Assembly: GCA_903927505.1 (NCBI GenBank)
Contig: CAIYNF010000046.1
Coordinates: forward strand, 1 to 44,735
DNA: 44,735 nt
DNA from: an uncultured Bacteroidota bacterium
GTDB taxonomy: Bacteria > Bacteroidota > Bacteroidia > UKL13-3
Direction: 5' to 3'
Position numbers and translations under genes: made by a program
Shown here: one piece after another, positions 1,835 to 7,632 of the stretch
How positions within the stretch are numbered: the stretch's first letter is position 1
Layout: each line of letters opens with the position of its first letter
Notes under the pieces: generated by a model
What the model saw: only the letters and a program-made list of their open reading frames with translations
Told to the model about the DNA's origin: nothing
Database searches by the model: none

Positions 1835-4057
1835 ATGTCAATAGCAACAACAAAAACCTTCGAATTAGATGGCAAAACCATCAGTATCGAAACAGGTAGA
1901 TTAGCCCGTCAGGCCGACGGCGCCGTGGTAGTAAAAATGGGTGATACCATGATTTTAGCTACCGTGGTTTCTGCTAAAGAAGCCAAAGAAGATGTAGACT
2001 TTATGCCCTTAACCGTTGATTACCAAGAGAAATTTGCAGCTGTTGGTCGCATTCCGGGTAGCTTTCACAAACGTGAAGCAAAATTATCTGATTATGAAGT
2101 ATTGGTAAGTCGTATTGTAGACCGTGCCTTGCGTCCTTTGTTCCCAGATAATTTCCATGCAGATACCCAAGTAGCCCTTACCTTAATCTCGGCAGATAAA
2201 AACATTATGCCTGATGCATTGGTAGGTTTAGCAGCATCTGCTGCCCTAATTGTAAGTGATATTCCTTTTAATGGTCCGGTTTCTGAAGTACGTGTTGCAC
2301 GTATTGATGGCAAATTTGTGATCAATCCTTATAAAGATGAATTAGCGCGTGCAGATATGGACCTTATTGTAGCGGGTACCGAACACGATTTAAACATGGT
2401 GGAAGGTGAATGTGCTGAAGTAAGTGAAATAGATATGCTTGAAGCAATGAAAGTAGGTCATGACGCCATCAAATTGCAAATTAAAGCACAGTGGGAATTG
2501 GTAGAAATGTTGGGCGGTAAAAAACCAACCCGCGAATACAACCATGAGCGCAGTGATTTAGAATTGGCAGCTGCCATTCGCACTTTTGCTTATGATAAAG
2601 TTTATGCTATTGCTAAATCTAAAGCTGGTAAAGGTGAGCGTTCTGCTGGTTTTAAAGCCATACGTGCAGAATACATGGCTACTTTGGCTGAAGATGCAGT
2701 TAAAGATAAATTCTTATTGAACAAATATTTCCACGATGTAGAATACGAAGCTGTTCGCGCCATGATTATCAATGATCGTACGCGTTTAGATGGTCGTAAT
2801 TTAGACCAAGTGCGTCCTATTTGGAGTGAAGTAAATTATTTGCCAGGTGCACACGGTTCGGCCGTATTTACCCGTGGCGAAACGCAATCATTAACCACTG
2901 TTACCTTAGGTACCAGCGATGATGAGCAATTATTAGACAGCCCAATGAATGATGGCTATGCTAAATTTTTATTACATTATAATTTCCCTGCTTTCTCAAC
3001 TGGTGAGGTTCGTCCTAACCGTGGTCCTGGAAGAAGAGAAATTGGTCATGGTAACTTGGCATTGCGCGGTTTAAAACGCGTATTACCTGGTGCACCAGAA
3101 AATCCTTATACCGTTCGTATCGTTTCAGATATTTTAGAATCAAATGGTTCTTCTTCTATGGCTACTGTTTGTGCTGGTTCATTGGCATTAATGGATGCTG
3201 GTATTAAAGTTACCGGTGCTGTAAGTGGTATTGCTATGGGTTTAATTAACGATGAAACCTCTGGTAAATTTGCCATTCTATCTGATATCTTGGGTGATGA
3301 AGATCACTTGGGTGATATGGATTTTAAAGTAGTAGGTACCAAAAAAGGTATTGTTGCTTGTCAAATGGACATTAAGATCAATGGTTTGAAATGGGAAATG
3401 GTGGAAGAAGCCTTGAACCAAGCAAAAGCTGGTCGTTTGCACATTATGGACGAAATGAACAAAACCATTGCCGAACCTAATGTAGATTACAAGCCACATG
3501 CGCCTCGCATTGTTACCTTGCATATTGACAAAGACTTTATTGGTGCCATAATTGGACCAGGCGGTAAAATTATACAAGGAATGCAACGCGATACAGGTGC
3601 TTCTATCTCTATTACCGAAGAAAATAACATGGGTATTGTAGAAGTAGCTTCTAATAACCAAGAAAGTTTAGAGAAAGCATTGGCTATGATTCGTGCCATT
3701 GTTGCTATACCAGAAGTTGGAACAGAATACACAGGTAAAGTAAAATCTATTGTAGACTTTGGTGCGTTCATTGAAATTATGCCAGGTAAAGATGGCTTGT
3801 TGCATATCTCAGAAATTGGCTGGAACCGTTTGGCTACTATGGATGGTATTTTCCAAGTAGGTGAAGAGGTGAAGGTGAAATTAATTGATGTGGATCAAAA
3901 AACAGGTAAATTGAAATTGAGCCGCAAGGTTTTAATGCCTAAGCCTGAAGGTTATGTAGAACCAGCTCCAAGAGAAAATCGTCCGCCACGTGATGGTAAC
4001 CGTCCGCAGAGAGATGATAGAGGTCCTCGTCCGCCACGCGAACCAAGACCAGAATAG
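1835..4057 (+). CDS. pnp: Polyribonucleotide nucleotidyltransferase (PNPase)
   Basis: This 740-residue protein is a phosphorolytic 3'-5' exoribonuclease of the RNA degradation machinery. It has the full PNPase order: first RNase PH-like domain (about residues 10-145), helical linker, second RNase PH-like domain (about 320-540, with [20 protein letters not shown]), KH domain with the GPGGKIIQ loop (near 575) and S1 domain (about 630-700, starting [20 protein letters not shown]). The last 40 residues form a Pro/Arg/Glu-rich tail of RPPRD-like repeats, low complexity and possibly an RNA- or protein-contact segment. It starts at ATG 1835 and a strong terminator follows the stop. Confidence 0.97.
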
Positions 4058-4068
4058 TTTTAAATTAT

Positions 4069-4104
4069 AAAAAAGGGAGTTGCAATTGCAGCTCCCTTTT
4101 TTAT
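4069..4104 (+). terminator. Terminator after pnp
   Basis: AAAAAAGGGAG (4069-4079) pairs with CTCCCTTTTTT (4092-4102). The enclosed bases are themselves largely self-complementary (TGCAATTGCA). The T-run follows the stem directly, giving a clear rho-independent terminator for the rpsO-pnp unit. Confidence 0.9.
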
Positions 4105-4143
4105 TTAGCGCGAAAATGTAAATTGCGAGGTTAATTGAAAGCA

Positions 4144-5163
4144 ATGGTAGATATTAAACGTATAGCAATTATTGGCGGAGGAAGTTGGGCAACCGCATTG
4201 GTGAAGATATTAAGTGAGAACAAAGCTTCCGGCAAATCTAAATTAGAAAGTATTTCTTGGTGGGTGAGAAGTGAAGAAAAAGCAGAGTATATCCGCACGC
4301 ACCATCATAATCCAGATTATATCAGTTCCATTGAAATTCATCCAGACCATGTAAAGGTTGGTTCGAACCTAAATGAAATTATTGAGGATGCGGAATTGCT
4401 GGTAATAGCTATTCCTGCTGCCTTTTTGGAAACAAGTTTAGAGGGCTGCAGCAAAAAATCCTTTAAAAATAAAGCTATTGTAAGCGCAATAAAAGGTTTG
4501 GTTCCTTCTACAAGAGAAATTGTTGGCGATTATTTTATCAATCATTATGGCGTTGATGAAAAGAAAATAATGGTAATCTCTGGTCCTTGCCATGCAGAGG
4601 AAGTTGCCAATGAAAAATTAAGTTACCTCACTATCGCAGGCCTTGGTCAAGAATGGGCCAGGTCATTTGCCGCCTTATTAAACAACGAGTACATCCGCAC
4701 AGTTGTTTCTAATGACGTGCGCGGCACAGAATATGGTGCGGTATTAAAAAATATTTATGCAGTGGCTGCAGGAATTTGCAACGGCCTTGGCTATGGCGAT
4801 AATTTTCAAGCAGTTTTAATGAGTAACAGTATTCGCGAAATGAAACGCTTCTTGCGCAATATTACCGATACGGATAGAAAAATAAACCATTCTGCTTACT
4901 TAGGCGATTTATTGGTTACAGGGTATTCTGTGCACAGTAGAAACAGAACTTTTGGCAATATGATTGGCAAAGGGTATACCGTTCAGGCGGCACAATTAGA
5001 AATGAAAATGATTGCAGAAGGATATTATGCAACCAAAAATTTGCATCTATTAAATGAGAAATTGCATATAAATATGCCCATAATGGATACTGTGTATGAA
5101 ATAATTTACGAAGGCAAATCTGCCCGTAAGTCCATTGAAAAATTAACTGAGAAATTAGTTTAA
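4144..5163 (+). CDS. gpsA: NAD(P)-dependent glycerol-3-phosphate dehydrogenase
   Basis: GpsA makes sn-glycerol 3-phosphate from dihydroxyacetone phosphate for phospholipid synthesis in the cytosol. The 339-residue product has the N-terminal Rossmann motif GGGSWA at residues 11-16. It also has the GPSHAEE-type motif as GPCHAEEVAN, the catalytic-lysine segment GAVLKNIYAVAAGI, and the GDLLVTGYSVHSRNRTFG segment that contacts the phosphate. The frame is open back to a TTG at 4135, but ATG 4144 places the Rossmann strand at the usual distance, so I chose it. It stands between the pnp terminator and the ric promoter and looks monocistronic. A GGTTCGAACC palindrome lies inside at 4360. Confidence 0.93.
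   Translation: MVDIKRIAIIGGGSWATALVKILSENKASGKSKLESISWWVRSEEKAEYIRTHHHNPDYISSIEIHPDHVKVGSNLNEIIEDAELLVIAIPAAFLETSLEGCSKKSFKNKAIVSAIKGLVPSTREIVGDYFINHYGVDEKKIMVISGPCHAEEVANEKLSYLTIAGLGQEWARSFAALLNNEYIRTVVSNDVRGTEYGAVLKNIYAVAAGICNGLGYGDNFQAVLMSNSIREMKRFLRNITDTDRKINHSAYLGDLLVTGYSVHSRNRTFGNMIGKGYTVQAAQLEMKMIAEGYYATKNLHLLNEKLHINMPIMDTVYEIIYEGKSARKSIEKLTEKLV
4360..4369. repeat. GGTTCGAACC palindrome, copy 1
   Basis: An exact copy of the 10-bp palindrome that recurs in this window. Here it lies inside gpsA and is read in the frame GGT-TCG-AAC-C (Gly-Ser-Asn). Confidence 0.6.
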
Positions 5164-5203
5164 GACTTTTATTAATTAGCTGTTTAAAATCATTAAAATA
5201 TAA

Positions 5204-5244
5204 TTCGGATATATTTGTCCGAAATAAAATATATTCTATTTTTG
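5204..5244 (+). promoter_or_regulatory. ric promoter with overlapping operator-like dyad
   Basis: TTTG (5214-5217) and TATTTTTG (5237-5244) are separated by 19 bases, an exact fit to the Bacteroidota promoter, 25 bases before the ric ATG. A perfect dyad, TTCGGA (5204-5209), 8 bases, TCCGAA (5218-5223), brackets the -33 element. A regulator bound there would block or alter sigma contact. Stress sensing of nitric oxide, oxidants or iron-sulfur status is a reasonable guess from the downstream gene, but the regulator is not identified here. Confidence 0.75.
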
Positions 5245-5269
5245 TACTGAATAATTAATAATTCAAACA

Positions 5270-5983
5270 ATGGAAAATAGGATGGCAGAACAAAAGGTTT
5301 CTGAAGTGGTAGCCTCTAATATAAAAACCGCTCATGTTTTTAAAAAATATGGTATTGATTTTTGCTGCGGCGGTGGCATTAGTATTGAAAGGGCTTGTAG
5401 CAAACATGCCATTCAAATGGATCAATTAATTGCAGAATTAATGCGTGTTGATCAAGCAGTTTTACCTGCTCAAAATTACAATAATTGGCCATTGGATTTT
5501 TTAATGGATTACATTATTCAAACGCATCATTCCTATGTTTTGGAGGCAGTGGATATGATAAAGTCGTACGCAGCCAAGGTGGTAAAGGTGCATGGGGAAG
5601 GTCATCCTCCTGTTATAGAAATTAATGAATTATTTCTAAGGGTTGCAAGTGAATTGCAATTTCATATGCAAAAGGAAGAGCAAATTTTGTTTCCATTTAT
5701 TAGAAAGCTGGTTCAAGAACAAAAGGATAAAACAAGCAGTTTAGCACCCCATTTTGGTTCGGTTGCAAATCCAATTGCCATGATGGAGCAAGAGCATGAA
5801 TTGGCTGGTGATTTACTGAAGAAAATTGCTGTTCTAAGTAATAATTATACCCCACCAGAATGGGCTTGCAATACTTTTAAAGCATTATATGCAAAGTTGG
5901 ATGAATTTGAACAGGATTTACATATACATGTACATTTAGAAAACAATATTTTATTTCCAAAGGCCATTGCTTTAGAAAATTAA
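5270..5983 (+). CDS. ric: Iron-sulfur cluster repair di-iron protein (Ric/ScdA/YtfE family)
   Basis: This 237-residue protein has the two-part Ric architecture. An N-terminal DUF542/ScdA domain carries the Cys-Cys motif (YGIDFCCGGG, about residues 28-37). A hemerythrin-like four-helix domain follows, with the di-iron ligand pattern: HHSYVLE near 88, the FHMQKEEQILFPF segment near 130, MMEQEHELAGDLL near 170 and a terminal HVHLENNILFP. Members repair iron-sulfur clusters damaged by nitric oxide or oxidants. ATG 5270 and ATG 5282 are both possible starts. The promoter dyad directly upstream implies regulated, stress-induced expression. It converges with the carboxylase gene, with no obvious terminator in the 29-base gap. 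Confidence 0.9.
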   Translation: MENRMAEQKVSEVVASNIKTAHVFKKYGIDFCCGGGISIERACSKHAIQMDQLIAELMRVDQAVLPAQNYNNWPLDFLMDYIIQTHHSYVLEAVDMIKSYAAKVVKVHGEGHPPVIEINELFLRVASELQFHMQKEEQILFPFIRKLVQEQKDKTSSLAPHFGSVANPIAMMEQEHELAGDLLKKIAVLSNNYTPPEWACNTFKALYAKLDEFEQDLHIHVHLENNILFPKAIALEN

Positions 5984-6012
5984 TATTATTTTCCAAACAA
6001 GTCAAAACCTCC

Positions 6013-7632
6013 TTAGGCTCGGATTACACCGGGCTTAAAGTCTTTTGTAATAGGTGCATGATTGGCTGCTTCAATTCCCATGCTAATCCATTTACGTGTT
6101 TCTTTTGGATCTATAATGGCATCTACCCAAAGGCGTGCGGCAGCGTAATACGGACTGGTTTGGCGCTCATAGCGTTCTGTAATTTGGTCCAATAATATTT
6201 TTTGTTTGGCCTCATCAACCACTTCACCTTTTGATTTTAAACTGGCCTCTTCAATTTGTAATAGCACTTTTGCTGCTTGGGCGCCACCCATTACTGCAAT
6301 TTTTGCATTAGGCCATGCGGCAATTAACCTTGGGTCGTAAGCTTTGCCACACATGGCATAATTTCCCGCCCCATAGCTGTTTCCTGTGATGATGGTGAAT
6401 TTTGGAACAACAGAATTGGCTTGTGCGTTTACCAATTTTGCACCATCTTTTATAATTCCGCCATGCTCACTGCGAGAACCCACCATAAAACCAGTTACAT
6501 CTTGTAAGAATAATAAAGGAATTTTTTTCTGGTTGCAATTCATAATAAAATGCGCTGCCTTATCTGCACTGTCGCTATAAATTACACCACCAATTTGCAT
6601 TTCGGTTGGATTGTCTGCTGCATTTTGTTTTGGCTTTTTTGCCTTTACCACTAAACGGTTATTGGCAACAATACCAACAGCCCAACCATTTATGCGGGCA
6701 TAACCACAAACAATGGTTTTGCCATATAAATCTTTGTAAGGGTCAAAAGTATCTGCGTCTACCAGGCGTTCAATAATTTCCATTACATCAAAGGGCTTGC
6801 TAAAATTAGCAACTGCATCGTATACATCATCCATTGATTTTTTAGGTGCAATTGGTTCGACCCGATTAAAACCTGCTTTTTCAAAATCGCCAATTTTATC
6901 GAAGATGCGTTTGATTCTATCTAAACAGGCCGCATCGTTTTCAAATTTATAATCGGTAACGCCGCTAATTTCGCAATGGGTGGATGCGCCACCTAAAGTT
7001 TCATTGTCTATGTCTTCGCCAATAGCAGCTTTTACCAAATAGGATCCAGCAAGGAAAATAGAACCTGTTTTGTCTACAATCATGGCCTCATCGCTCATGA
7101 TGGGAAGGTAGGCGCCACCCGCCACACAAGAGCCCATTACGGCAGCAATTTGGGTAATTCCCATGCTGCTCATTATGGCATTGTTTCTAAAAATTCTACC
7201 AAAATGTTCTTTGTCTGGAAAAATTTCATCCTGCATGGGAAGGTAAACGCCAGCACTGTCTACCAGATAAATAATGGGTAATTTATTTTCGATGGCAATT
7301 TCTTGAGCACGTAAATTTTTCTTTCCAGTAATAGGAAACCAAGCACCCGCTTTTACGGTGGCATCGTTGGCAACCACAATACATTGCCTGCCGCTCACAT
7401 AGCCCATCACAACTACAACACCACCGCCGGGGCAACCGCCATGTTCTGCATACATTTCATAACCTGCAATGGCGCCAATTTCAATTTGGTCTTTGTCTTT
7501 ATCCAATAGGTAAGCCACGCGTTCGCGGGCAAGCATTTTGCCTTTTTCTATTTGTTTGGCAGCAGCTTTTTTGCCACCACCTTCATGTATTTTTTCTAAT
7601 TTTTGGTGTAGTTCGGTAACCAGCTTGTTCAT
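6013..7632 (-). CDS. Acyl-CoA carboxylase, carboxyltransferase (beta) subunit, methylcrotonoyl-CoA carboxylase-like
   Basis: The 539-residue product is a biotin-dependent carboxyltransferase with two crotonase-fold halves. The N-terminal half has LRAQEIAIENKLPIIYLVDSAG, PDKEHFGRIF and MGSCVAGGAYLP. The C-terminal half has FLQDVTGFMVG, GAGNYAMCG and the PNAKIAVMGGAQAA segment. Length and the early motifs resemble methylcrotonoyl-CoA carboxylase beta more than propionyl-CoA carboxylase, suggesting leucine catabolism, but the acyl substrate cannot be fixed from motifs alone. No alpha (biotin carboxylase/BCCP) subunit gene is in the window. The start at ATG 7632 fits the family. Confidence 0.88.
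   Translation of the reverse strand: MNKLVTELHQKLEKIHEGGGKKAAAKQIEKGKMLARERVAYLLDKDKDQIEIGAIAGYEMYAEHGGCPGGGVVVVMGYVSGRQCIVVANDATVKAGAWFPITGKKNLRAQEIAIENKLPIIYLVDSAGVYLPMQDEIFPDKEHFGRIFRNNAIMSSMGITQIAAVMGSCVAGGAYLPIMSDEAMIVDKTGSIFLAGSYLVKAAIGEDIDNETLGGASTHCEISGVTDYKFENDAACLDRIKRIFDKIGDFEKAGFNRVEPIAPKKSMDDVYDAVANFSKPFDVMEIIERLVDADTFDPYKDLYGKTIVCGYARINGWAVGIVANNRLVVKAKKPKQNAADNPTEMQIGGVIYSDSADKAAHFIMNCNQKKIPLLFLQDVTGFMVGSRSEHGGIIKDGAKLVNAQANSVVPKFTIITGNSYGAGNYAMCGKAYDPRLIAAWPNAKIAVMGGAQAAKVLLQIEEASLKSKGEVVDEAKQKILLDQITERYERQTSPYYAAARLWVDAIIDPKETRKWISMGIEAANHAPITKDFKPGVIRA

Follow-up and report, generated by a model that had tools for sequence, protein, structure and literature searches.

The inverted repeat TTCGGA-N8-TCCGAA in front of the iron–sulfur (Fe–S) cluster repair gene ric is very probably, on comparative evidence, bound by an Rrf2-type regulator. 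This dyad, ordinary in appearance, emerges as one of three predicted operators of a small nitric oxide (NO)/nitrous oxide (N2O) regulon, and a putative lineage form of a motif that looks Bacteroidota-wide. The operator and the regulon are well supported by comparison, through the sites themselves, their conservation and their co-occurrence with an Rrf2 gene, and we infer binding by the Rrf2 protein, repression, a cluster and an NO signal.

The window, which is the whole stretch of 44,735 nucleotides analysed, contains the dyad as an exact match that ends 46 bp upstream of the ric ATG (position 5270). The initial annotation had placed it over the -33 element of the ric promoter; this TTTG element indeed lies within the dyad spacer, abutting the right arm. 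The promoter, TTTG-N19-TAnnTTTG, matches the TTTG/TAnnTTTG form of Bacteroidota promoters (PMC2483708). The ric product is assigned to the RIC/YtfE/ScdA family by TIGR03652 (244.7 bits against a cut-off of 204.7, 8.6e-73) and comprises ScdA_N and Hemerythrin domains in Pfam. Because 6-bp inverted repeats are common, a lone dyad is little evidence: the window holds 199 perfect ones with spacers of 4–12, including 44 whose arms each have three or more G/C. With two mismatches allowed, the dyad pattern matches twice in the window against 1.04 expected. The coordinates of the features are collected in Table 1.

Table 1. Features of the proposed regulon; positions without a contig name are those of the window, and C164 is a second contig of the same genome (G000).
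Feature	Location	Strand	Remarks
Operator dyad TTCGGATATATTTGTCCGAA (TTCGGA-N8-TCCGAA)	5204–5223	.	sequence and comparison; proposed Rrf2 regulator site
-33 element TTTG	5214–5217	+	sequence; consensus PMC2483708; inside dyad
-7 element TATTTTTG (TAnnTTTG)	5237–5244	+	19 bp 3' of TTTG
ric (ytfE/scdA)	5270–5983	+	di-iron iron–sulfur cluster repair protein, 237 aa; TIGR03652, Pfam
Fasciclin-domain gene	C164:5201–5752	-	start taken at 5752
Dyad 2	C164:5781–5800		between minus-strand fasciclin-domain gene and divergent Rrf2 gene
FNR-like box at rrf2	C164:5803–5814		locus L016
Rrf2 gene	C164:5887–6315		142 aa
FNR-like boxes before nos	C164:6385–6396, 6407–6418		locus L016
Dyad 3	C164:6439–6458		13 bp upstream of cytochrome c gene
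nos operon			order: cytochrome c, nosZ, NosL-like ORF, nosD, ABC ATPase, ABC permease-like gene

The genome (2,821,997 bases in 209 contigs, 99.67% complete) carries three exact dyads, against 0.05 expected under a first-order Markov model of the window or 0.11 from composition (P for at least three, 1.6e-5), and one exact copy of the reversed pattern used as a control, against a Markov expectation of 0.34. A relaxed pattern with a free third base, WWNGGAYNWWWWNRTCCNWW, recovers the same three sites and nothing else, and its reversed control likewise has three matches. With two mismatches, 50 dyads stand against 140 control matches; degenerate copies are not enriched, and weight is therefore placed only on exact copies and their places. 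The one-mismatch copies were rejected: one on contig C109, sharing its 20 bases with a copy on C194, falls within a transketolase-like ORF, and another on C128 lies within a 1290-aa open frame. The identical copies at C109:73–92 and C194:22888–22907 occupy two contig ends and are perhaps overlapping assembly ends.

Both further exact dyads are located on contig C164, 658 bp apart, where they flank the only gene of the genome with a PF02082 match at E ≤ 0.001, an Rrf2 gene. One lies upstream of this gene and the other before the nosZ operon. The initial annotation had read the dyad as a repressor site for an NO- or redox-sensing regulator of the Rrf2 or Crp/Fnr kind, which it left open; conservation on the ric side and the flanking of a single Rrf2 gene support this reading, and the evidence points to the genome's Rrf2 protein as the likely regulator. 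Dyad 2 ends just ahead of the -7 element of the fasciclin gene, TATATTTG. A longer ATG-to-stop reading of this gene, to 5815, would cover dyad 2, and in the related genome G011 the start of the fasciclin frame lies past the dyad. No TAnnTTTG element was found before rrf2 or nos. The nosZ product is of the Sec-dependent type (TIGR04246, 926 bits). The 328-aa ORF of the nos operon (C164:9006–9992) has an N-terminal membrane part and a C-terminal part that appears NosL-like by eye, with no match in Pfam or NCBIfam. A query of this genome for a quinol NO reductase, run without a positive control, found nothing. Fasciclin-domain genes recur close to the regulator gene or in divergent orientation to it, in this genome and at 17 of 80 relatives' loci.

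Lying over the predicted -33 element of ric and stopping short of the -7 element in front of the fasciclin gene, the dyad has the placement of a repressor site. Some Rrf2 proteins, such as IscR, activate as well as repress, and the Rrf2 protein might accordingly bind the dyad and activate ric with no repression. This is quite improbable, given that a site lying on the -33 element of one promoter and ending before the -7 element of another occupies the usual place of a repressor.

The association between dyad and Rrf2 gene was followed through 19 genomes of the genus, seven of which encode a close Rrf2 protein (59–100% identity). Exact dyads occur in all seven and in none of the 12 others (Fisher 2e-5, an optimistic value as the genomes are related); one of these 12, G018, has an Rrf2 protein of 46% identity. 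Twelve of the 14 exact copies in the genus lie at the same three promoters, namely rrf2/fasciclin (6), nos (4) and ric (2). The remaining two are the single exact dyad of G015, within an ORF, and an unexplained third copy in G013 (L031), which is outside any ORF found and has no ORF start nearby. Plain counts do not differ from those of the reversed control (14 versus 9 in the seven genomes, 17 versus 21 outside the genus) and thus provide no argument, so that only the places of the dyads carry weight. The distance from dyad start to rrf2 start is near-fixed across the genus, at 105–109 bp. Before the nos cytochrome gene, as compared over a 22-bp segment, the site starts at -34 to -39 in G000, G011, G003, G007 and G013 (imperfect in G007); a second site at -111 to -117 is present in G003, G007 and G013, with a decayed version in the window's genome. 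In G002, G015 and G018, no GGA-N8-TCC core was found in the vicinity of the nos promoter.

At ric, the dyad is kept before the gene in close relatives, and it is thus found both before ric orthologues and elsewhere in the genome, the two places whose lack of it the initial annotation had taken to speak against its reading. Among the six ric-bearing genomes of the genus, two have an exact dyad, G013 has a dyad with one mismatch and an unchanged promoter spacing, only the GGA-N8-TCC core is left in G003 and G007, and G015 shows no convincing site upstream of ric. The RIC protein of G013 is 63% identical, and the two 250-bp upstream regions share a 37-bp alignment over the dyad (E 1.2e-8), with no other falling below 0.01 (second best, E 0.045). 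A functionless chance dyad would be in keeping with the 199 inverted repeats of the window and with the exact copies found outside the genus (17 in 11 of 41 genomes), yet it is extremely improbable: the 11 of these 17 copies that were examined all lie within ORFs (one only in a 63-aa ORF), whereas those of the genus cluster at three promoters, and the conserved footprint before ric also argues against chance.

The C164 protein is a member of the Rrf2 superfamily (PF02082, 95.2 bits against a cut-off of 30; TIGR00738, 100.8 against 73.3). Its AlphaFold model (pLDDT 86.5) has the winged-helix Rrf2 fold, and 18 of the 21 highest rows of a comparison with the PDB are named Rrf2-family proteins (Z 11.6–16.3). 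CymR (Z 16.3), NsrR (7b0c, 14.8), IscR (14.5) and RsrR (13.6) all match, and therefore the fold does not choose between these regulators. Relatives were collected in a GTDB genome scan by peptide patterns including MFSKSCEY and HECSEKNP, and the best 80 of 247 Rrf2 proteins were retained, from named Bacteroidota groups except for two titled 'bacterium'. C6, E7, Y8, C92, C99, C105 and H108 are invariant in 80 of these 80 relatives, the invariance of C6, E7 and C99 being partly favoured by the patterns that selected them. C92, C99 and C105 are also present in 39 of 39 rows of A1, while E7 is missing in 10 of 30 Rrf2 matches from genomes of the family, the more distant ones (9 K, 1 Q). A profile alignment pairs E7 with residue 8 of RsrR, a cluster ligand in that protein, and H108 lies two residues past the third cysteine, giving the Cys-Cys-Cys-x2-His order of IscR. 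Known Fe–S regulators of the Rrf2 family are NsrR, IscR, RsrR and RirA; the title of one reference names Cys, Glu and His, and Cys93, Cys99, Cys105 and Asp8 are named for NsrR (PMC9338935). The conserved residues resemble the cluster ligands of NsrR, IscR and RsrR and suggest that the protein carries an Fe–S cluster; the predicted ligands do not tell NO sensing apart from Fe–S or redox sensing. The NCBIfam scores for a SUF regulator (64.7 bits) and for IscR (TIGR02010, 62.4 against a cut-off of 207.55) exceed that for NsrR (PRK11014, 34.2 against 182), all of them below cut-off.

A palindromic motif was sought within 200 bp upstream of 72 Rrf2 relatives, after eight near-duplicates had been dropped. 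The search returned TAAAgGAtAatatTaTCcTTTA, with a fitted occupancy of 0.82 and a log-likelihood of 467, against 40.5–46.5 for five shuffled sets (40 starts for the real set, 20 for the shuffled ones). Shuffling, here and in the FNR-box and window controls, moved two-letter blocks and was not a full dinucleotide shuffle. The family motif, TAAAgGAtA-n4-TaTCcTTTA, has the same GGA-N8-TCC core as the window dyad, and its site mostly begins 52–67 bp upstream of the rrf2 start. No simple change in the recognition helix that would explain TTCGG versus TAAAGG arms was seen by eye. In two genomes of another genus (G075 and G076), ric directly follows rrf2 and the exact dyad precedes rrf2. With the window's clade left out of the training set (67 loci), the motif placed the ric dyad first in the 44.7-kb window, a score equalled in 10 of 50 shuffled windows. 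Its top two positions in C164:1–14000 fall on the decayed nos site and on the dyad between fasciclin and rrf2; the best seven do not include the exact nos dyad of this genome.

Trained on nothing but the regions upstream of rrf2, the motif also marks neighbouring genes, in regions outside the training set. Scores of at least 15 occur upstream of 21 of 72 NO/N2O-class genes versus 12 of 375 others, with rrf2-divergent regions and regions shorter than 50 bp dropped and with classes that were set after the neighbours had been seen. The post hoc classes and some near-duplicate loci (L074/L133, L078/L079) make the P of this comparison optimistic. If a cupin family and two membrane families that lack annotation are counted with the others, the figures are 15 of 59 versus 18 of 388 (P 2e-6). 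By class, the motif lies upstream of norC-like genes in 5 of 8 cases, cytochrome c in 4 of 7, RIC in 4 of 9, fasciclin in 2 of 11 and nosL in 0 of 16; 'NorC' and 'NorB' are labels of this analysis, for which Pfam gives cytochrome c and COX1. At the 80 loci, the neighbour families include RIC (30), globin (24), quinol NO reductase (20), nosZ (17) and fasciclin (17), one representative each of the RIC, globin and quinol reductase families having been checked by Pfam. Globin and quinol NO reductase are linked to the regulator by neighbourhood, no sites of their own being counted. Two families adjoin the regulator and have no Pfam match, those of L080:8477–8935 (23 loci) and L071:8468–9772 (15 loci); the motif lies upstream in 3 of 5 and 2 of 3 cases, respectively, and they are candidate NO-response genes.

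This gene set argues for NO over Fe–S status as the probable signal. The profile scores, H108 and the alignment of E7 lend some weight to another possibility, in which the same Rrf2 protein on the same operator senses Fe–S status, redox or iron in the manner of IscR, RsrR or RirA, with ric and nosZ answering oxygen or Fe–S damage. The protein shares the Rrf2 fold and the residue aligned with RsrR residue 8 with these regulators, but its IscR score is far from the cut-off and no Fe–S assembly family was recognised among the 28 most widespread neighbour families (some of them unannotated), where RIC, globin, quinol NO reductase and nosZ were. Sensing of this kind is unlikely.

Other Rrf2 groups among the relatives differ in their boxes. 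A second group (L098, L100, L102, L120, L132 and others) has a box TAAAAGAT-aaaaa-ACTCTTTTA about 64 bp before rrf2, accompanied at some loci by a metal-ATPase gene and cbb3-type-looking oxidase genes; it is possibly a paralogue with another role. A third group (L048, L051, L056, L058, L059 and L062–L065) starts with MFSQ.CKY, with K7 in place of E7, and its boxes mostly end in GGTCTTTTA; it perhaps has a different cluster or no cluster ligand at position 7.

Taken together, we consider it quite probable that the dyad serves as operator for an Rrf2 repressor that is NsrR-like, senses NO and regulates its own gene. An Rrf2 dimer with an Fe–S cluster would sit on the dyad, over the ric -33 element, where it would block RNA polymerase. 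NO would attack the cluster, the protein would leave the DNA, and ric would be made and Fe–S damage repaired. The same protein would occupy dyad 2, between its own gene and the fasciclin gene, resulting in autoregulation, as well as dyad 3 before the cytochrome c–nosZ–nosD operon, and destruction of the cluster by NO would release ric, nos and the regulator gene together.

NsrR is an NO-sensing repressor of the Rrf2 family, present in Proteobacteria and Streptomyces, among others. Its targets are dnrN/ytfE-type genes and the nsrR gene itself, joined in some species by nos or nor (PMC1274295, PMC9338935). The sites found here conform to such a regulon, lying at ric, nos and the regulator's own gene in this genome and at norC-like, RIC and cytochrome c/nos genes elsewhere. 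The Rrf2 fold, the three conserved cysteines and an acidic residue near position 8 are likewise shared with NsrR. In contrast, the operator is TTCGGA-N8-TCCGAA or TAAAGGATA-N4-TATCCTTTA, whereas the NsrR motif is gATGyAT-N5-ATrCATc (PMC1274295), for which no match with up to three mismatches was found within 10 kb of ric; the invariant C6 and H108, the fasciclin gene in the regulon and the NsrR profile score also set this protein apart. It thus probably works like NsrR, though the profiles do not class it as one.

A regulator of the Crp/Fnr family, for instance HcpR, could also be considered to bind the dyad. HcpR, an NO regulator of Bacteroidales, has a role in nitrosative stress in Bacteroidota and was predicted in a 2005 comparative study to control dnrN (ric) in Bacteroides fragilis (PMC1274295, PMC13370916), and the genome has three HTH_Crp_2 matches. 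FNR-like palindromes (TGAY-N4-RTCA) lie next to the dyad at rrf2 and close to the one at nos. At rrf2, each of the seven genus genomes has the palindrome exactly 2 bp from the dyad. Taking all loci, such a palindrome is present in 31 of 110 rrf2 upstream regions against 1.2 expected, in a tally that enters most genus genomes twice, once per collection. However, HcpR belongs to another family with another operator: the HcpR2 box GTAAC-N4-GTTAC (PMC1274295) has no match with up to two mismatches at 2913–6485, no TGAY-N4-RTCA occurs in the 200 bp before ric, and the dyad tracks the Rrf2 gene across the genus. Binding of the dyad by such a regulator is very unlikely. With FNR-like boxes at rrf2 and nos and none at ric, nos and rrf2 may receive two regulatory inputs and ric one.

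In the cited studies the phylum's nitrosative-stress regulator is HcpR (PMC1274295, PMC13370916), to which an Rrf2 branch would be added here. In sediment metagenomes, Rrf2 genes were enriched beside clade II nosZ, with a role described as 'difficult to predict' (PMC6264515, 2018); the gene neighbourhood is the same, while the available text of that study gives no operator, regulon or link to ric. Among the matches listed in the literature on Rrf2/NsrR in Bacteroidota, with subscription journals thinly covered, titles and opening abstracts describe neither this regulon nor this operator. We think it fairly likely that Bacteroidota possess an unnamed NO regulator, an Rrf2 subfamily marked by E7, C92, C99, C105 and H108, plus C6, with an operator TAAAGGATA-N4-TATCCTTTA whose outer arms drifted to TTCGG in some lineages. 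It would couple N2O respiration by a clade II-type nosZ to NO defence, the latter comprising ric and norC-like genes and, judged by neighbourhood, globin and quinol NO reductase; in the window's genus, the FNR-like boxes beside the rrf2 dyad and before nos would make a two-input switch. What results is a candidate regulator with its operator and three promoters in a single genome, and a family motif that can be tried in cultured genera among the relatives (Aquimarina, Cellulophaga and Tenacibaculum), which opens NO control of N2O removal to testing. Bacteroidota that carry nosZ are able to consume N2O, and for the Rrf2 genes beside such nos clusters the role had been left open (PMC6264515). 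If the proposal is true, nitric-oxide defence would be tied in these bacteria to the removal of nitrous oxide, a greenhouse gas.
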